Source: Pleomorphomonas diazotrophica
GTDB lineage: Bacteria > Pseudomonadota > Alphaproteobacteria > Rhizobiales > Pleomorphomonadaceae
NCBI RefSeq assembly: GCF_002844595.1
Contig: NZ_PJNW01000002.1
Coordinates: 806,001 to 870,000, forward strand
Reading direction: 5' to 3'
DNA length: 64,000 nucleotides
This document shows, piece after piece, positions 2 through 9,560 of the stretch (the stretch's first letter is position 1; each line of letters begins with the position of its first letter). The translations under genes and the position numbers were made by a program. The notes under the pieces are model-generated. The model did not search any database, was not told the origin of the DNA, and saw only the letters and a program-made list of their open reading frames with translations.

Positions 2-868
2 ATCGATCCGGCGGCGCGCAACATCGCCATGGTGTTCCAGAACTATGCGCTCTACCCGCACATGAGCGTCTACGACAATCTCGCCTACGGTCTCCGGAAC
101 CGCGGCGTTCCCAAGGCGGACATCGACGCCCGCGTTGCCGAGGCGGCGCGCATGCTGGAGATCGAACCATTTCTTGAGCGCAAGCCGAAGCAGCTGTCCG
201 GCGGCCAGCGGCAGCGCGTTGCCATGGGGCGAGCCATCGTCCGTAAGCCCGACGCCTTCCTGTTCGACGAGCCGCTCTCCAATCTCGACGCCAAGCTGCG
301 CGTTTCCATGCGGGGCGAGATCCGCCAGTTGCAGCGCCGGCTCGGCGTCACGTCGGTCTATGTGACGCACGACCAGCTCGAGGCGATGACGCTGGCCGAC
401 CGGATCGTCGTCTTGAACGGCGGCCGCGTCGAGCAGGTCGGTCGGCCGCTCGACGTCTATCACAGCCCCGCATCGACCTTCGTTGCGAGCTTCATCGGCT
501 CGCCGGCCATGAATCTCGCCGATGCCGAGGTGATGGGCGGCTCGGTGGCGATCGGCGGGCAAGTGGTAGCACGGGGCGTCGCCGGCATCGTCGACGGCAA
601 GCTGACCGTAGGCCTCCGAGCCGAGGACATCCAGCTAGCCACCTCGGGGGCCGGTGTGCCCTTTGTGGTCCGCTATGTCGAGGAGCTCGGCGCTCTCCGT
701 CTGGTGCATGGCTCGGTCGAGGGGAGGCACCTGACCATGGCACTGTCGCCGGATTTGCCGCTTTCCGACGAGATGAAGGTGGCGGTCGCTGCCGACCGGC
801 TGCATTTCTTCGAGGGAGCTAGTGGCCGGCGGTTGGCCCGGCCGGCTGACGCTCAGGTCGGCAGGTAG
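2..868 (+). CDS. ABC transporter ATP-binding protein, MalK/UgpC type (5' end missing)
   Basis: The gene is cut by the left edge; the frame is open from base 2 and the visible part is about 288 residues. It encodes the cytoplasmic ATPase of a carbohydrate or polyol importer of the CUT1 type. Visible are the Q-loop region ([14 protein letters not shown]), the signature [14 protein letters not shown], Walker [16 protein letters not shown] and the switch-His segment VTHDQLEAM, followed by a C-terminal TOBE-like domain typical of MalK/UgpC. Walker A lies outside the window. It converges with the following minus-strand gene and overlaps its 3' end by about 16 bases. The substrate cannot be told from the ATPase alone. 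Confidence 0.93.
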
Positions 869-1545
869 CCGATCGCCTCATCGGTGCTCATCACCGAGCA
901 GTAGATCATGTTCATGATCTCAAGCTCGCGATCATGCAGGTCCATGGTGCCGGCAGCGCAGGCATCCTCGGCGACGATGACGTCGAAGCTTTCATCGGCG
1001 AGGCTGCGCACCGTCGAGGCGACGCACTGGTCGGTGAAGATGCCGCAGCAGACCACGTGGGTGATGGCGAGGTTGGCGAGCACCAGGCGCAGATTGGTGC
1101 CGGTGAGCGCGCTGTCGGTGGTCTTGGTGACGACGATCTCGTCGCCCTCAGGCGCGATGGCCGGCACGATCTGGGACGCCAGCCCATCCTTCGGCAGCAG
1201 GAGGTTATTCCAGCCGGGCTTTTTCTGGCTGAGGGAGCGGTCGCGTCCATCATGGCGCAGGGCCGCGATGCGGGCATAGAGCACATCGAGGCCACGGCCG
1301 CGGAAAGCGGCAAGCAGCTTCTCAATCGATGGGATCACCGTGCCGTGCATGCGCTCGTGGAAGGGCGTCCAGGCATGATATCGGGCGAGGTCGTCGCCGA
1401 TCAGTTTCGTCGGATCCGGGCGGTCGAGATAGACGTTCTGAACGTCGATGATGAGCAGCGCCACCTTGCCGGGAAGGAGCATCGGGTCCTCCGGGGCGGG
1501 TGCGCCGTCATAATAGAAGGAGCGACGGGCGGTCTTCCAGGTCAT
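853..1545 (-). CDS. isochorismatase-superfamily cysteine hydrolase
   Basis: A 230-residue cysteine hydrolase of the isochorismatase/nicotinamidase superfamily, expected to cleave a C-N amide bond or a related bond in a small molecule. The catalytic triad is visible: Asp34 in LLIIDVQN, Lys141 in VVTKTTDS and Cys174 in [11 protein letters not shown]. The start ATG has a good Shine-Dalgarno (GAGGAG, 5 bases away). It reads in the same direction as the hydrolase and luxR genes to its right and may belong to the same catabolic locus, but a 150-base gap with a strong hairpin separates it. Members such as N-carbamoylsarcosine amidase and biuret hydrolase have this size; the substrate is unknown. Confidence 0.88.
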
Positions 1546-1695: not shown

Positions 1696-2595
1696 TCACT
1701 CGTCGACCGATTTCAGGAAGTCCGACACGGTCGCAAGGCACTTTTCCTGTTCTTCGACGTGCGGCATATGGCTCGACTGCTCGAACAGCACCCAGCGGAT
1801 GCCGGGCACCTTCTCGACATAGGGGCGGACCACCTCAGGCGTCGCTTCGTCGTACTTGCCGGAGATGAGCAGCGTCGGCACGTTGATCTGCGGCAGGCGG
1901 TCCTCGATGGTCCAGTCCTTCATCGTACCGATGACGTGGAACTCGGTGGGGCCGTTCATGTTGATGTAGACGGTGTTGTCGAGGTCCATCAGCTCGAAGG
2001 TGCGGCTCACCTCCTTCGGCCAGGGATCGAGCCGGCAGACGTGACGGTTGTAGAATACCCTTGACGCCGCGACATAGTCGGGATGGGTGATGGTGCCGGC
2101 TTCCTCGTGCTTCAGTAGCGTCGCCTGTACCTCGGGCGGCAGTTCCTCGCGCAGGCGGTTGGCCTCGCTGACCCAGGTGTGCATGTTGGCCGGCGAGTTG
2201 GCGATGATGAGCGCCTTGAGGCCCTTCGGCCGGCGCACGGCATGTTCCGCGCCGAGCATTCCGCCCCAGGACTGGCCGAGATAGGCATAGCGGTCGGCGA
2301 TGCCGAGATGAGAGAGCAGGGCGTCGAGCTGATCGAGGAACAGCTCGACCGTCCAGAAGTCCTTGCCCTTGTCGGGCAGGTGGGTCGAGTTGCCTGAACC
2401 GAGCTGGTCGTAGTGGATGATCGCACGACCATCGAGGTCGGCGATGTGCTTGAAGCTGTCGACGTAATCGTGGGTGCAACCCGGTCCGCCATGGGCGACG
2501 ATCATCGGCAGTCGGGGCGACGATAGCGAGCCGGTGACGCGATACCAGGTTTCATAGGCGCCGAAGGGCGCAAATCCTTCCACGACATCGACCAC
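1696..2595 (-). CDS. proline iminopeptidase-like alpha/beta hydrolase (1)
   Basis: A 299-residue serine hydrolase of the proline iminopeptidase / L-amino-acid amidase family (peptidase family S33). Visible features are the oxyanion motif HGGPG (35-39), the nucleophile elbow GQSWGG with Ser109, acid Asp249 in SGKYDEATP and His276 in QSSHMP. The start is GTG at 2595, preceded by GGAGG at 7 bases; no signal peptide is seen, so it is cytoplasmic. It lies 66 bases downstream of the luxR gene on the same strand. Adjacent pip genes are a known companion of the plant-compound-sensing LuxR solos. It shares the segment around NRHVCRL with the second hydrolase at 3603, so the two are probably paralogues. 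Confidence 0.9.
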
Positions 2596-2661
2596 TGCTT
2601 GCCCTCCGATGCATATGCGTTGGGCAAAAACATAGCGCGACGAAAAGCTGAGCAGCAGCTA

Positions 2662-3444
2662 TCAGAAGTTATAGGTCGGGGGTTCGTCGAGGAGCCGATA
2701 ATGGATGGCACGCACGACAGCCTGGGTGCGATTGCGAGCACCGAGCTTGCGGATGGCCGAGTTGAGATGCATCACCACCGTCGGCACCGAGCGATCGATG
2801 ATGCGGGAAATCTCCTTGGCCGACAGCCCCTCGGCCGAATGGCGAAGGCATTCGCGCTCGCGATCGGTGAGGCGCGGCATGGCACCGACGCGGACCGGAG
2901 CGTCGAAGGCCGAATAGGCGGTTTCGTGGAACAGATGAGCGAGCAAGCCGAAATCGGCGATGGCTCTCTCGGCAGCATGCTGGAAATCGGGGCCGGCACC
3001 AAAGCGGACGCCGGTCACCGTCGCATAGTCGCCGCGCGGCAGGTGCACGGGAACGGTGACGCCGGAGGTCAGACCACGGTCGCGCAGATAGCTTTCTACC
3101 GGGCGACTGTCGTCACAGAGATAACGGCGGATCGCGGTGTCGGCGTTGCGGTCATAGTTCCAGAAGAACGGCGTCGATGTTCTGAGTGCCAGTTGCTGCA
3201 CCGGGTCGAAGCGGAAATAACCGCGGCCACACCAATACTCGTGCATGTCCTCCGGCACGTTCCTGAGCTTCAGGAGCGATGGGATGTTCATGCTGCCGTC
3301 GACGTCATAGGGCACCGGCGTGTAGTCGTAGATGAGCGCATCGAAGCCGAAGCCTTTGACCATGTCGAAGGCCTGGTCGATGCACCCCTCCAGGCTGGTC
3401 TCAGTGGCGAGACGCTCCCTGATGGCGGCAATGTCGACGGGCAT
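2662..3444 (-). CDS. orphan LuxR-family receptor, plant-compound-sensing (OryR/PipR-like) type
   Basis: A 260-residue transcription factor with an N-terminal autoinducer-binding domain (about 15-165) and a C-terminal LuxR helix-turn-helix (about 190-250: LTDRERECLRHSAEGLSAKEI). Aligning on the conserved DP (Asp80-Pro81 = TraR D70-P71) and Trp95 (= W85), the positions equal to TraR W57 and Y61 are Met67 and Trp71. That double change is the signature of the subfamily of LuxR solos from plant-associated bacteria that respond to plant-derived compounds instead of acyl-homoserine lactones. No luxI-type gene is in the window. It is flanked by two pip-like hydrolases and a peptide-type ABC importer, as expected for this group. 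The ATG start has GGAG about 9 bases upstream, inside a 10-bp palindrome. Confidence 0.9.
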   Translation of the reverse strand: MPVDIAAIRERLATETSLEGCIDQAFDMVKGFGFDALIYDYTPVPYDVDGSMNIPSLLKLRNVPEDMHEYWCGRGYFRFDPVQQLALRTSTPFFWNYDRNADTAIRRYLCDDSRPVESYLRDRGLTSGVTVPVHLPRGDYATVTGVRFGAGPDFQHAAERAIADFGLLAHLFHETAYSAFDAPVRVGAMPRLTDRERECLRHSAEGLSAKEISRIIDRSVPTVVMHLNSAIRKLGARNRTQAVVRAIHYRLLDEPPTYNF

Positions 3445-3602
3445 CTATAGCTACTCCGGAGTGGAAAGCCCCGTGAAAGGCGGCTTAGGCTCCTCCATCG
3501 CGTTGACCCTATCACTTCTAATAGCTGGTGTTGAGCGCCAATTCATCCAAAATTTGATCACGCTCAAATCGTGGGCTTTGAACTAAGCAGCGGAGATCGG
3601 TC
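3445..3602. promoter_or_regulatory. divergent promoter region between luxR and the hydrolase-transporter operon
   Basis: This 158-base region must carry both promoters. Two symmetric elements stand out: the perfect palindrome ACTCCGGAGT (3453-3462), which covers the Shine-Dalgarno of luxR, and a 7-bp inverted repeat TTGAGCG (3531-3537) / CGCTCAA (3561-3567) whose arms are 30 bases apart, about three helical turns, with an AAATTT core between them. The second is a candidate operator for the LuxR-type protein. No canonical 18-20 bp lux box was recognised, so the assignment is an inference. Confidence 0.45.
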
Positions 3603-4493
3603 ATGTGGCGGGAAATCGCCCCGGATGCCACCCACGTGGTGAAAGTCGACGGGTATGATGTCATCGCCTACGAGTTTGGTGAGGGCGATGAGGTCGTGTT
3701 CCTGGCCAACGGCGGTCCAGGTCTCCCTTGCGACTATCTGCGCGAGGCTCACTCCTGCCTGATCGACCACGGCTATCGCGTCGTTGCCTTTGACCAACTC
3801 GGTACCGGTGCCTCCGATCGTCCGACCGATCCCGCACTCTGGACGATCGGCCGCTATGTCGAGGAAACCGAGACGGTGCGGAGGGCTCTGGGCCTCGGAA
3901 AGGTGCATTTCCTCGGTCATTCCTGGGGCGGTTGGCTGGCGATCGACTACGCGTTGACCTATCCGGATGCGCTCAAGACGCTGGTCCTTGAGGATACCGT
4001 CGCCGATATGCCGCATCTCATCACCGAGCTCGAACGGCTGCGCGGCGCGCTCGGGTCGGAGACGGTGGCGATGATGCAGGCACACGAGGCGGCCGGCACC
4101 ATCGATCACCCCGAGTATATGGCGGCGATCACGCTGCTCAACTATCGCCATGTCTGCCGCCTGAAGGAATGGCCGGCGCCGGTCAACCGCTCGCTATCGG
4201 ACTGGAACATGGGCCCTTACGCCACCATGCAGGGGCCGAACGAGTTCCTCTACATCGGCAACCTCAAGGACTGGAACCGAGTTTCCGACCTTCACAAGAT
4301 TACCGTGCCGACGCTGATCACCTGTGGCGAGCACGATGAGCTGACGCCGGCCTGCGCGTTGCGCATGAAGCTCAATCTGCCCAACGCCGAGCTCAAGGTG
4401 TTTGCGAACTCCAGCCATATGCCCTTCTATGAGAACCCGAGGGACTACTATCCGGCGCTTCTTGCCTTCCTCGGGAAACACAGCCAGCGATGA
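3603..4493 (+). CDS. proline iminopeptidase-like alpha/beta hydrolase (2)
   Basis: A 296-residue serine hydrolase of the proline iminopeptidase family. It has NGGPG (36-40; the usual first residue is His), the elbow GHSWGG with Ser107, acid Asp245 in CGEHDELTP and His272 in NSSHMP. The ATG follows GGAG at 7 bases. It is the first gene of an apparent operon with the two permeases, fused ATPase and binding protein, and is divergent from the luxR-type gene. The arrangement suggests that an imported peptide or amide is cleaved in the cytoplasm. It is a paralogue of the hydrolase at 1696-2595; the Asn for His change in the oxyanion motif may mean a different substrate. Confidence 0.9.
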   Translation: MWREIAPDATHVVKVDGYDVIAYEFGEGDEVVFLANGGPGLPCDYLREAHSCLIDHGYRVVAFDQLGTGASDRPTDPALWTIGRYVEETETVRRALGLGKVHFLGHSWGGWLAIDYALTYPDALKTLVLEDTVADMPHLITELERLRGALGSETVAMMQAHEAAGTIDHPEYMAAITLLNYRHVCRLKEWPAPVNRSLSDWNMGPYATMQGPNEFLYIGNLKDWNRVSDLHKITVPTLITCGEHDELTPACALRMKLNLPNAELKVFANSSHMPFYENPRDYYPALLAFLGKHSQR

Positions 4494-4538
4494 TGCCCGC
4501 ACCAATCATGACATGCCTTGCCACATCCGGACGCTACG

Positions 4539-5477
4539 ATGCACCGGTATAAGTTCGTCCTCTATCGTCCCCTGCAGTTCCTGCCGGTGCTGTTCGGCAT
4601 CAGCCTCATCACCTTCGTGCTGGTGCGCCTGATCCCCGGCGATCCGGCGCGCGTACTGCTCGGCACCAAGTCGACGCCGACCGCCATCGCGGCCATCCGC
4701 GCCCAGTACGGTCTCGATCAACCGATCTGGCTGCAATATTTCTACTTCCTGCAGAATCTCGCCCAGGGCGAGATGGGCAAGTCGATCCTCTACAAGATCG
4801 ACGTGCTCAGGCTGATCACCACCCGCATCGAACCGACGCTGGCGCTGGTACTTTGCTCTGTGCTCCTGTCGCTGATCATCGCCGTGCCGCTCGCCTCGCT
4901 GGCCGCACGGTCGAACGGCGGCCCCGCCGATCACATCGTACGCTTCATCTCGACCTTCGGCATCGGTTTCCCACCCTTCTGGCTGGCGCTGATGCTGATC
5001 ATCTTCTTCTCGGTGCGGCTCGACCTGTTCCCCGTGTCCGGCTATGGCGAGAACCTTGCCGACAAGCTTTATCACCTGATCCTGCCGTCGCTGACCATCG
5101 CCCTGTCGCTGTCGACGGTGCTGATCCGGTCGCTGCGTACGGCGATGATTGCCGAACTGAAGGGCGATCTCGCCACGGCGGCGCGGGCGCGCGGCATGCC
5201 CGAGAGCATAGTCTTCTGGCGGCATGTCGTACCCAACTCGCTGGTACCGACGGTCAACCTCCTCGCCGTCAACATCGGCTGGCTGATCGGCGGCACGGTC
5301 GTCGTTGAAAGCGTGTTCGCTCTGCCCGGCATGGGCCAGTTGCTCGTCCGCGCCATCTTTTCCCGCGACTATATGGTGGTGCAGGGTGTGGCCATGGTGT
5401 TCGCCTGCGCGACGGTTCTGGTGAACTTCATTGCCGATATCGTCACCGTCGCCATCGACCCGAGGGTGAAGCAATGA
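4539..5477 (+). CDS. peptide/opine-type ABC transporter permease, DppB-like
   Basis: A 312-residue inner-membrane permease of the dipeptide/oligopeptide/nickel (PepT) family. It begins RPLQFLPVLFGISLITFVLV, the usual first membrane helix, followed by RLIPGDPARVLLG; the conserved cytoplasmic loop (RARGMPESIVFWRHVVPNSLVPTV) is near residues 210-235. An upstream in-frame TTG at 4518 exists, but the ATG at 4539 fits family N-termini better. It follows the hydrolase by 45 bases and overlaps the next permease by 4 bases, so it is co-transcribed. Confidence 0.93.
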   Translation: MHRYKFVLYRPLQFLPVLFGISLITFVLVRLIPGDPARVLLGTKSTPTAIAAIRAQYGLDQPIWLQYFYFLQNLAQGEMGKSILYKIDVLRLITTRIEPTLALVLCSVLLSLIIAVPLASLAARSNGGPADHIVRFISTFGIGFPPFWLALMLIIFFSVRLDLFPVSGYGENLADKLYHLILPSLTIALSLSTVLIRSLRTAMIAELKGDLATAARARGMPESIVFWRHVVPNSLVPTVNLLAVNIGWLIGGTVVVESVFALPGMGQLLVRAIFSRDYMVVQGVAMVFACATVLVNFIADIVTVAIDPRVKQ

Positions 5478-6310
5478 CCGCCGCGCTCGCTCCCGCCTGG
5501 GTGGCGGTTCGGCGGCGGCCGACGCTGCTCGCCGGGTTGATCCTGCTCACCGCCTTTCTCCTCATCGCCCTCACGGCGCCGCTGATCGCACCCTACGATC
5601 CGATCCTGCAGAACGGCGACCTGCGCCTCCAACCGCCGTCCTGGGCGCATCCCTTCGGCACCGACAACTTCGGCCGCGACATCTTCTCGCGCGTCATCTG
5701 GGGCACGCGGGTCGACCTTCAGATCGCGGTGATCGGCGTCGTCTTTCCCTTCCTGATCGGCACCACGGTCGGCACGGTCGCCGGCTATGTCGGCGGCAAG
5801 GTCGACATCGTCTTCATGCGCGTCATCGACATCATCCTCGCCTTTCCCTTCCTGGTGCTGATGCTGTCGATCATCGCCATCCTCGGGCCGGGTCTTCAGA
5901 GCTTCTACATCGCCATGGCGCTGGTCGGCTGGGTATCCTATGCCCGGCTGATCCGGGCGCAGATGCTGGTCTTGAAGACGGTGGACTATGCGACGGCGGC
6001 GCTCAGCCTCGGCTTTTCCGGGCCACGCATCATGTTCCGCCACCTGCTTCCCAATGCCATTGCGGGATCGGTGGTGTTCTCGATGTCGGATTGCGTGCTG
6101 GTGCTTCTTTCCGGCGCTGCCATCAGCTACCTCGGCCTCGGCGTACAGCCGCCCATCGCCGAGTGGGGCGTGATGGTGGCGGAGGGCCAGAGCTTCATCA
6201 CCACGGCCTGGTGGATCACGCTCTTTCCAGGCCTTTCCATCGTGACGCTGGCATTCGGCTTCTCCCTGACTGGTGACGGCCTCGGCGATCTACTGGGGGT
6301 GCGCGAATGA
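5474..6310 (+). CDS. peptide/opine-type ABC transporter permease, DppC-like
   Basis: A 278-residue second permease of the same importer. It shows an N-terminal membrane helix, the DppC hallmark [19 protein letters not shown] near residues 58-76, and the EAA-like loop around [24 protein letters not shown]. Start and stop overlap both neighbours by 4 bases (ATGA), indicating translational coupling with DppB-like and ATPase genes. Confidence 0.93.
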
Positions 6311-8028
6311 GCGAAGCGCTGCTCTCCGTCCGCGACCTCAGCGTCGTCTTCGCCGGCGACGATGGACCTCGCACGCTGATCGACAACCTGTCGTTCGACC
6401 TCGGCCAGGGCGAGATCCTCGGCCTCGTCGGTGAGAGTGGTTCGGGCAAGAGCCTCACCTGCCGTTCCTTGGTTCGGCTGATGCCATCGCCCAAACTCGC
6501 GATCACCTCGGGTGCGGTGATGCTCGACGGCCGCGACCTCACGAAAGTCTCGGAAGCCGACATTCGCGACGTGCGCGGCCGCGACATCGGCATGATCTTC
6601 CAGAACCCGACCAGCCATCTCGATCCCCTGATGCACATCGGCGACCAGATCGCCGAAGGAATCCGGGTGCATCGCGGCGTTGATGGCAAAGCGGCGAGGG
6701 CGGCCGCTCTGGATATTTTGGCGCAGGTTGGCTTTCCGCATCCGGCCCGGCAGTACAACGGCTACCCGCACGAGTTCTCGGGCGGCATGCGCCAGCGCGC
6801 CATGATCGGTGTGGCACTCTCCTGCGATCCGCGCATCCTGATCGCCGACGAGCCCACCACCGCGCTCGACGTGACCATTCAGGCGCAGATCCTGAAGCTG
6901 CTGATGGATCTCCGGGAGAGCCGGGGCCTGTCGGTGATCATGATCACCCACGATCTCGGCATCGTCGCCCAGACTTGCGACCGCATCGCCGTGCTCCGGC
7001 AGGGGAAACTGCTGGAGATCGGCGGCAAGCGCGACCTTCTCGGCCGGCCGCAGCATCCCTACACGCAAAACCTCATCGCCTCGCATCCGTCGATGCCGGC
7101 ACGGCAGGCGGCGATGTCCAGCCACATCGTCCACCCGACCGCCGTCGTTCCGAAGGCGCGTCCGCTCATCGAGATCGACGACCTTCATGTTCGTTTCCCG
7201 GTAACCGGGCGCGGCTTGTTCTCAGGTGGACCGCGCGAGTTCTCGGCCGTCAAGGGCGTCAGCCTGCAGGTGATGCCGGGTGAGACGGTGGGTATCGTCG
7301 GCGAGAGCGGTTCGGGCAAGTCGACGCTGGCGCGAGCGCTGTTGGGGCTGACGCCCATTTCCGACGGGCATGTGTCCTTCGACGGCGCCGACATCGTCAT
7401 GGAGAGGGCCAAGGCGCTGAGCAAGCTTCGCCAGGAGACGGCGATGGTGTTCCAGGACCCCTATAACGCGCTCAACCCACGCCTCACCATTGGCACCATG
7501 CTGGCCGAGGTGCTCGCCGTGCAGGACAGCGTGCCGAAGGAGCGGATCCCCGAGCGCATCGGCGAACTCCTCGACCTCGTCGGTCTCGAGCGCGAGTTCG
7601 CCGGCCGCAAGCCGCTCTCCATGAGCGGCGGCCAATGCCAACGCGCCGGTATCGCCCGGGCGCTGGCCGTCAATCCCAAGCTGATCGTCGCCGATGAATG
7701 CGTTGCCGCGCTCGATGTGACCATTCAGGCGCAGATCGTCGATCTCTTCCGCGACCTCAAGCGACGGCTCAATCTGACGCTGCTGTTCATCGCCCATGAT
7801 CTCGCCATCGTCCGCAGCCTCTGCGAGCGAGTGGTGGTCATGTACCACGGCGAAATCGTCGAGGAAGGGCCGACGGAGGACGTGTTCAGCGCGCCGCGCG
7901 AGGCTTACACGCGGGCACTGATCGACGCCATTCCGGATATCGATCCCGACAAGCGACTTGTGCCTCCACGGGGTGGAGATGCCTTGATTGAAGAAACGTC
8001 CGGGTTAGTCACGGACGAGATATCATAA
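6307..8028 (+). CDS. peptide ABC transporter, fused two-domain ATPase (DppD-DppF type)
   Basis: A 573-residue protein with two complete ATPase modules that are separate proteins in many species. The first has Walker A GESGSGKS (42-49), signature [11 protein letters not shown] and Walker [14 protein letters not shown]. The second has Walker [10 protein letters not shown] around residue 335, signature [15 protein letters not shown] and Walker [14 protein letters not shown], where the usual Pro after Glu is Cys. Both carry the oligopeptide-type ATPase C-terminal region, the first just before residue 280. It sits between the permeases and the binding protein in one operon and powers import from the cytoplasmic side. 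Confidence 0.94.
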
Positions 8029-8045
8029 CCAGAAGGGAACTCGAC

Positions 8046-9560
8046 ATGACCGCAAAGTGGACCAAACTCAGCGTGGCGACCGTTCTCGCCACCCTCATTT
8101 TCGGAGCTTCGATCGCCGAGGCCGCCGGCGTGCTCACCATCGGCCGCCGCGAGGACGGCACGACCTTCGATCCCATCAAGACGGCCCAGAACGTCGACAA
8201 CTGGGTGTTCTCCAACGTGTTCGACGTGCTGGTGCGCGTCGACAAGACCGGCACCAAGCTGATCCCGGGCCTTGCCGAGAGCTGGAGCGTGTCGGACGAC
8301 GGGCTGACCTATACCTTCAAGCTGCGCGACGCCAAGTTTTCCAACGGCGATCCGGTGACCGCCGACGACGCGGCTTTCTCGATCCTTCGCATTCGCGACA
8401 ATCCGGGGTCGCTGTGGGCCGACAGCTACAAGATCGTCGATACGGCCACGGCCGCCGACCCGAAGACGCTGGTCGTCAAGCTGACCGGCCCGTCGGCGCC
8501 CTTCCTGGCGTCACTTGCCCTGCCCAACGTGTCGGTACTGCCGAAGAAGGTGGTCGAGAGCATGGGCGAAGACGCCTTCGGCGAGGCGCCCATCGGTTCC
8601 GGTGCCTTTGCCGTCAAGGAATGGCGTCGCGGCGATCGCGTCATCCTCACCAAGAACCCGGAGTATTGGGACGCCGCCAACGTCAGCCTCGACGGGGTCG
8701 AGTGGATCTCCATTCCCGATGACAACACTCGCATGCTGAAGGTACAGGCTGGCGAGATCGACACGGCCATCTTCGTGCCCTTCTCGCGCATCGCCGAACT
8801 CCAGAAGGATCCCAATCTCAAGATCCATCTGGACACCTCGACGCGCGAGGATCACCTCTTGATCAACCATGAGCACGGCGCGCTCGCCAAGAAGGAGGTG
8901 CGTCAGGCGCTGGACATGGCGATCGACAAGAAGGCGATCGTCGACGCGGTGACCTTCGGCCTCGGCGAGGTCGCCTATTCCTATGTTCCGAAGGGTGCCC
9001 TCTACCACTACGCCGACAATCTCCAGCGCCCCTACGATCCGGAGAAAGCCAAGGCCATGCTGGCGGAAGCCGGCGCTGCCGATCTCAACCTCAACTATGT
9101 CGTCAATGCCGGCGACGAGGTCGACGAGCAGATCGCCGTGCTGTTGCAGCAGCAGCTTGCCAAGGCAGGCATTACGGTGAGCCTGCAGAAGGTCGATCCA
9201 AGCCAGAGCTGGGACATGCTGATCGCCGGCGACTACGACATATCGGTCATGTACTGGACCAATGACGTGCTGGACCCGGACCAGAAGACCACCTTCGTGC
9301 TCGGCCACGACAGCAACATGAACTACATGACCCGCTACAACAATCCGGCAGTCAAGGATCTGGTCGGCGCCGCGCGCGTCGAGATGGACCCCAAGAAGCG
9401 CGAAGAGATGTACATCGAGCTCCAGAAGATGGCGAAAGACGACGTCAACTGGATCGACCTCTACTACAGCCCCTATCGCAACGTGTCGCGCGCCAACATC
9501 GAGACCTTCGATCAGAACCCGCTTGGCCGCTTCTTCCTCGAAGAGACCAAGAAGAACTGA
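8046..9560 (+). CDS. ABC transporter periplasmic substrate-binding protein, family 5
   Basis: A 504-residue extracytoplasmic binding protein (SBP_bac_5 family: peptides, opines, nickel, glutathione). An N-terminal signal peptide (KWTKLSVATVLATLIFGAS ... EAA) precedes the mature start. The family signature region AESWSVSDDGLTYTFKLRDAKFSNGDPVTADD is seen near residues 78-110, and the typical DMAIDKKAIVDAVTFG further on. The start has AGAAGGGA upstream. It is the last gene of the hydrolase-transporter operon. In PipR-type systems this component captures the plant-derived signal or its precursor; here the ligand is unknown. Confidence 0.93.
   Translation: MTAKWTKLSVATVLATLIFGASIAEAAGVLTIGRREDGTTFDPIKTAQNVDNWVFSNVFDVLVRVDKTGTKLIPGLAESWSVSDDGLTYTFKLRDAKFSNGDPVTADDAAFSILRIRDNPGSLWADSYKIVDTATAADPKTLVVKLTGPSAPFLASLALPNVSVLPKKVVESMGEDAFGEAPIGSGAFAVKEWRRGDRVILTKNPEYWDAANVSLDGVEWISIPDDNTRMLKVQAGEIDTAIFVPFSRIAELQKDPNLKIHLDTSTREDHLLINHEHGALAKKEVRQALDMAIDKKAIVDAVTFGLGEVAYSYVPKGALYHYADNLQRPYDPEKAKAMLAEAGAADLNLNYVVNAGDEVDEQIAVLLQQQLAKAGITVSLQKVDPSQSWDMLIAGDYDISVMYWTNDVLDPDQKTTFVLGHDSNMNYMTRYNNPAVKDLVGAARVEMDPKKREEMYIELQKMAKDDVNWIDLYYSPYRNVSRANIETFDQNPLGRFFLEETKKN

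Follow-up and report, generated by a model that had tools for sequence, protein, structure and literature searches.

Positions 1696-9560 of a 64,000-nucleotide stretch of the Pleomorphomonas diazotrophica genome (the whole stretch is hereafter called the window) encode a LuxR-type receptor, a proline-iminopeptidase-like hydrolase on each side of it and a full peptide-type ATP-binding cassette (ABC) importer, and a near-identical operator-like sequence, CCTATNACTTNTNATAGCTG, precedes each hydrolase (Table 1). The genome comprises 4.53 Mb in 40 contigs, and the window lies in contig 11. The coordinates and gene identities given in a preliminary description of this DNA hold, and family scans confirmed every named gene. 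Matches to Autoind_bind (E 5.2e-30) and GerE (E 6.8e-14) confirmed the LuxR architecture of the receptor. Both hydrolases passed the TIGR01250 cut-off of 167.65, with 269.7 bits for the one in the PipA position and 267.3 bits for the one in the AapA position, and the motifs GGPG, GQSWGG, DEATP and SSHMP were all found in the former. The importer consists of two permeases, a fused double ATPase and a solute-binding protein (SBP_bac_5 match, E 2e-101) whose best PDB match was AapF (E 3e-236, 70.8% identity). A pip gene adjoins the receptor, as in the PipR-type subfamily, here one on each side, and an AapF-type protein and importer are linked to it, as in PipR-Aap systems. By sequence, the whole block is orthologous to the NesR locus of Sinorhizobium and the PipR-AapA-F locus of Pseudomonas GM79.

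Table 1. Genes and operator-like sites of the receptor locus, in window coordinates
Feature	Coordinates	Strand	Remarks
Hydrolase, proline-iminopeptidase family, PipA position (downstream of luxR)	1696..2595	-	Family scans, synteny
LuxR-type receptor/regulator, NesR/PipR orthologue, 260 amino acids	2662..3444	-	Met67, Trp71, Gln83, Val116, Leu120
Hydrolase, proline-iminopeptidase family, AapA position (opens the importer operon, divergently from luxR)	3603..4493	+	
ABC permease, AapB position	4518..5477	+	
ABC permease, AapC position	5474..6310	+	
Fused double ATPase, AapD+AapE position	6307..8028	+	
Solute-binding protein, AapF orthologue, SBP_bac_5	8046..9560	+	70.8% identity to PDB 7kz8/7kz9 chain
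Putative operator 1, CCTATCACTTCTAATAGCTG, luxR/aapA-type intergenic region	3508..3527	+	
Putative operator 2, CCTATAACTTCTGATAGCTG, overlaps luxR stop codon	2656..2675	-	
Isochorismatase-family cysteine hydrolase, probably a non-core neighbour	853..1545	-	Linkage seen in no clade but Pleomorphomonas

Operator-like sites and their confinement to the locus

Operators 1 and 2 have the form of CT-N12-AG lux boxes. The core of operator 1 is centred at -86.5 from the hydrolase ATG and at -72.5 from the luxR ATG, and the palindrome of operator 2 is centred, by its coordinates, at -71.5 from the GTG of the pipA-type gene. When the window was shuffled by dinucleotides, operator matches at three or fewer mismatches averaged 0.02. 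Across 84 loci (L002-L081, L149, L151, L157 and L160), CTAT-N8-ATAG was found upstream in all 84 and downstream in 83, the exception being L157. The bases of C-[CTAT]-n-ACTT-n-T-n-[ATAG]-CTG were kept at 92-100% each in both the upstream and the downstream sets; the letters CTAT and ATAG were fixed by the way the sites were found, and this conservation applies to the remaining letters. The gammaproteobacterial relatives examined were without the exact box, and the Pseudomonas-type loci L158, L161, L098 and L099 carry ACCTAG..TAG boxes (downstream in all four, upstream in two) where the window has CTAT-N8-ATAG. The core spellings had no match in the literature searched, with subscription papers and supplements outside its scope.

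In the P. diazotrophica genome, exactly two exact operator matches were found, both at the locus. Up to two mismatches gave four matches, these two included, against eight for a reversed control, which led us to reject a wider regulon built on exact or near-exact sites in P. diazotrophica. The pattern CTATNACTTNTNATAG occurred exactly twice per genome, always at the locus, in all 11 receptor-carrying Pleomorphomonas genomes and nowhere in the three that lack the receptor; its reversed form was absent from all 14. Sites with one mismatch were not in excess, with five further ones in the 14 genomes against 13 control matches. A slightly looser pattern, CTATNANTTNTNATAG, chosen after the Rhizobium boxes were seen, was scanned through 18 carrier genomes hand-chosen from the 80 carrier loci described below, 16 of them outside Pleomorphomonas. 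The pair stood at the locus in all 18, as was already known from the survey of loci, its placement being judged from coordinates and spacing; nothing beyond the pair was found in 16 genomes and one stray site in each of the other two, with three control matches. Because the operator pair occurs at the locus and almost nowhere else, we propose a closed circuit: its confinement suggests that two operators serve the inducible import and degradation of a single compound and not a broad plant-signal regulon.

The receptor and its subfamily

The preliminary description had placed Met67 and Trp71 at the positions of TraR W57 and Y61, and phmmer alignments with chains of engineered RhlR variants, CviR and LasR bore this out: Met67 fell on the conserved Trp and Trp71 on the Tyr, and D80, P81 and W95 also lined up. 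The W57/Y61 pair typical of acyl-homoserine lactone (AHL) receptors is thus not kept. When identical sequences and the window copies (L001, L090, L152 and L153) were omitted, all 91 clade rows had Trp71 and none of the 30 outgroup rows did, which argues against chance. Met67 was present in 87 of the 91 clade rows, and Gln83 and Val116 in all of them. At the TraR W57 and Y61 positions, the outgroup had Trp in 25/30 and Tyr in 27/30 rows, and the clade had these residues in 4/91 and 0/91. The pocket residues listed for the PAB subfamily are Gln for V73, Val for F101 and Leu or Met for A105, in the available text of PMC7301841; the receptor has Q83, V116 and L120, the equivalence of the last two being counted from the conserved Gly128. 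Q83 and L120 were each shared by one of the 30 outgroup rows.

A tree of 38 clade rows and 12 of the 30 outgroup rows separated the clade from the outgroup at 100/99 and Pleomorphomonas at 97/93. Most Rhizobium rows were omitted for size, and S. meliloti 4H41 stood in for NesR, with OryR, PipR and TraR themselves not included. The receptor therefore lies outside the LuxR proteins that mostly keep AHL-type residues, the outcome on which the preliminary description had depended. It had depended equally on the absence of luxI, and no PF00765 match was found in the P. diazotrophica genome, other AHL synthase families being outside the search. Positive controls gave three matches in S. meliloti, four in R. 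leguminosarum (one with an internal stop) and one in P. carboxyditropha; P. oryzae gave none. A Pfam profile search placed Autoind_bind at one place in the P. diazotrophica genome at E 0.001 or better.

These sequence comparisons support membership of the receptor in the OryR/NesR/PipR (PAB) subfamily of LuxR solos. The earlier proposal that the Met/Trp pair and pip adjacency mark the OryR/XccR/PsoR/NesR/PipR group stands as far as OryR/NesR/PipR membership is concerned, but not for the residue pair as a general mark, as PipR keeps Trp57 and is therefore Trp/Trp (PMC4981722 and PMC7301841, as far as available). The Trp/Trp receptors in our residue alignment are four, those of L158, L161, L098 and L099, and their Pseudomonas-type name is our inference. 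The solute-binding proteins of L158 and L161 are 94-95% identical to AapF. These two loci pair a Trp/Trp receptor with an AapF-like protein, so the types of receptor pocket and binding protein match in the few cases compared.

Synteny and distribution

Among the best 80 of 136 receptor relatives, the divergent gene block F-DE-C-B-hydrolase/luxR-hydrolase was found in 80/80 loci, with the F end lost at a contig border in L009 only, and both hydrolases were present in every one. The closest named carriers of the receptor were P. carboxyditropha (95% identity), which by its coordinates is one of the genus genomes counted below, and P. oryzae (90%); beyond the genus, the relatives were mostly Rhizobiaceae at 65-71%, with S. 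meliloti 4H41 at 67%. The receptor was present at 90% identity or more in 11 of 14 Pleomorphomonas genomes, P. diazotrophica included, and absent from all six genomes of five other genera in the family. In a draw of 398 Pseudomonadota genomes, with at most six candidates scored per genome, 12 including P. diazotrophica matched the receptor at no less than 47% identity and 241 bits; the next-best match by score had 91 bits and 30% identity. Among the 11 other carriers, eight had both hydrolases, two had the pipA-type gene only (L100/L159 and L101/L157) and one had neither (L097/L156). Some of our locus and genome handles denote one organism (L002 = G003 = G408; L007 = G004 = G410). The annotated plasmids inspected were three of 649 plasmid records with a match. 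Both hydrolases were present on those of R. leguminosarum WSM1325 and Pannonibacter phragmitetus 31801, the latter recorded from human blood / liver abscess drainage, and the aapA-type hydrolase was missing from the Rahnella aceris plasmid locus.

The fusion of the two ATPases is not universal, as two genes are annotated in the Rahnella locus L150, and L158 and L161 each gave two separate matches. A tree of 31 solute-binding proteins placed the window protein with other alphaproteobacterial ones on a branch that is not firm (88/77), and AapF with two Pseudomonas-type proteins (100/100). Forty near-fixed differences separated AapF, L158 and L161 from the 83 other rows, with L150, L159 and L160 excluded.

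Among the carriers that depart from the common arrangement are the following two. In a gammaproteobacterium (G360, L156:8940-9746), a Met/Trp clade receptor of 49% identity is divergent to an amino-acid (APC-type) permease, and no hydrolase match was present within about 9 kb, an exception to the rule that pip always adjoins the receptor. In an alphaproteobacterium (G390, L157:3115-10636), the receptor and the pipA-type gene are kept, the aapA-type gene was not found, and the peptide-type ABC importer is distantly related (28-42% identity), which suggests that the import module was exchanged. No empty insertion site was readable: 19.5 kb of G409 matched only a phytase-like neighbour, and the sole close match on a 13.5-kb contig of G419 was the isochorismatase.

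Discussion

Overall, we provide a putative mechanism for the NesR/PipR-AapA-F orthologue of P. diazotrophica, and we consider the scheme as a whole very probable. The AapF-type protein would bind a small amide- or peptide-like compound in the periplasm, and the ABC transporter would carry this compound into the cell. There, the compound would bind the LuxR-type receptor, whose pocket is without the AHL-type W57/Y61 pair. With ligand bound, the receptor would then activate transcription at both near-identical operators, that of the aapA-type hydrolase and the importer operon at one and that of the pipA-type hydrolase at the other. Finally, the circuit would be shut down as the hydrolases use up the ligand or something derived from it. 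What was observed here is the orthology, the synteny, the pocket residues and a conserved pair of operator-like sites restricted to this locus. Import dependence, activation and negative feedback are expected by analogy with experiments in GM79, where an aapB mutant was unresponsive, peptidase mutants over-responded and a negative-feedback loop was proposed (PMC4981722; this and the articles cited below are quoted from the parts available).

Several points weigh against this scheme. The preliminary description had expected promoters at 3445-3602; no sigma-70 consensus was found within 2560-3640, although the operator-like site at 3508-3527 does lie there. The putative function of the operators is deduced from conservation, position and symmetry, and a brief literature search turned up no Pleomorphomonas expression or binding data. 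In 79 of 83 loci, operator 2 runs into the end of the luxR coding sequence or its stop codon, and the conservation of this site may therefore be partly at the protein level. However, coding constraint alone is insufficient, because in the other four the whole downstream box is situated past the stop codon of luxR. Val116 discriminates poorly, since 10 of the 30 outgroup rows have it. The tree tool gave a long-branch warning, and the split between clade and outgroup is partly expected because the clade rows were picked by similarity score. In addition, other Pip systems differ: in the strain carrying PsrR, a Met/Trp receptor, neither HEHEAA nor ethanolamine nor rice root extract induced pip, in an assay that may have failed (PMC7301841).

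This last result also bears on the ligand. HEHEAA, an ethanolamine-derived amide, is named as the PipR ligand (PMC10134790), and the preliminary description had adopted it as the inducer class. That assignment has become doubtful, given the PsrR strain and the report that a protein closely homologous to the HEHEAA-binding transporter protein does not bind this compound (PMC10134790); the ligand of Met/Trp-type receptors may be a different one. The combination of import, sensing and cleavage offered in the same description is not new, as it is the model published for GM79 (PMC4981722). From the GM79 and PsrR literature, the earlier synthesis is thus the published model, with a weaker link to HEHEAA than was stated. 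Nor do two hydrolases in place of one set this locus apart: GM79 has two (PMC4981722), which are also tabulated in PMC10134790, its arrangement is said to resemble that of E. meliloti nesR, and both hydrolases occur in 80/80 loci. As a novelty, published for GM79 and S. meliloti, the second hydrolase was rejected. The earlier interpretation as a whole is therefore partly supported.

How widely the receptor acts, and on what, can be read in other ways. It could in effect be a catabolic regulator dedicated to one small nitrogen-containing compound or one class of peptides; it would directly control uptake and breakdown and nothing else, and plant signalling would be incidental. This is a special reading of the mechanism proposed above, and the probabilities of the two overlap; we give it close to an even chance. 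The exact operator core is confined to the locus in all 11 genus carriers and in 16 of 18 genomes of the CTATNANTTNTNATAG scan, one-mismatch sites are not in excess, and a carrier plasmid comes from a Pannonibacter of human origin. PipR answers to peptone (PMC4981722), and NesR is tied to carbon-source use and stress survival (PMC3824090). On the other hand, plant extracts elicit a response from both OryR and PipR, some homologues are important in planta (PMC4981722, PMC7301841), and degenerate, weak or half operators may exist elsewhere. Pleomorphomonas itself is mentioned in papers on rice and other plants, in the portions available. That the receptor is an ordinary LuxR solo eavesdropping on the AHLs of neighbours is very improbable. 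Its Autoind_bind domain is intact with D80, P81 and W95 kept, and a congener, P. carboxyditropha, has luxI, but the W57/Y61 pair is replaced, the clade stands apart from other LuxRs, the receptor is linked to an importer and hydrolases, and GM79 PipR was unresponsive to six AHLs (PMC4981722). The pocket residues, the tree and the absence of a PF00765 luxI led us to reject an AHL receptor identity.

The adjacent isochorismatase-family cysteine hydrolase raises a further reading, in which Pleomorphomonas would use a third hydrolase on the imported amide. The gene adjoins the pipA-type gene in all 11 genus carrier genomes and has the motifs IDVQN, TKT and TDQC, which presumably hold the catalytic Asp, Lys and Cys. 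However, G419 has a 79% identical copy without the locus, the gene was not seen in carrier flanks outside the Pleomorphomonas clade (some flanks being about 1.5 kb), and a 150-bp gap separates it from the pip gene. We consider this version unlikely and rejected the isochorismatase as a core part because of the G419 copy.

As first described, the finding is for the most part ordinary, and what merits testing is the operator pair with its restriction to the locus. The new element is the paired sites, which suggest, from sequence, that the circuit controls only itself. We tentatively extend this to the Hyphomicrobiales, as a proposal somewhat short of an even chance: the NesR/PipR-type receptor would be a strictly local regulator with two operators and its own importer and hydrolases as sole direct targets, a catabolic switch with the LuxR fold that serves a small imported amide or peptide, and not a broad interkingdom-signalling regulator. 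If this is true, the operator sequence lets Hyphomicrobiales carrier genomes be scored for it. The locus-confined pair provides a direct and cheap test between plant sensing for broad programmes and the management of one compound's uptake and breakdown, and reporters in laboratory rhizobia can be based on the operators to find out which ligand Met/Trp receptors bind.

Comparison with known systems

The system itself is known, and import, sensing and signal degradation are already joined in the published GM79 model. One of the closest known counterparts is the S. meliloti 4H41 locus (L061), probably the published nesR to judge from species, context and similarity. Its receptor is 67% identical to that of the window, its hydrolases 77 and 82% and its importer proteins 72-83%; gene order, strands, the Met/Trp pair and the operator pair, alone in the genome, are the same. 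It differs in that each operator core is one base off that of the window and the isochorismatase neighbour was not seen. GM79 shares the gene set of two peptidases and an ABC peptide importer, with pipR between two peptidase genes followed by aapB-F, and its pipA needs a site centred at -71.5, the same spacing as operator 2 (PMC4981722). Unlike the window, it keeps Trp57 in PipR and has two separate nucleotide-binding-domain genes (PMC4981722). OryR, XccR and XagR of Xanthomonas share the receptor subfamily and an adjacent pip with the window (PMC10134790), but, in the available text of PMC4981722, they have an APC-family permease and no linked ABC importer.

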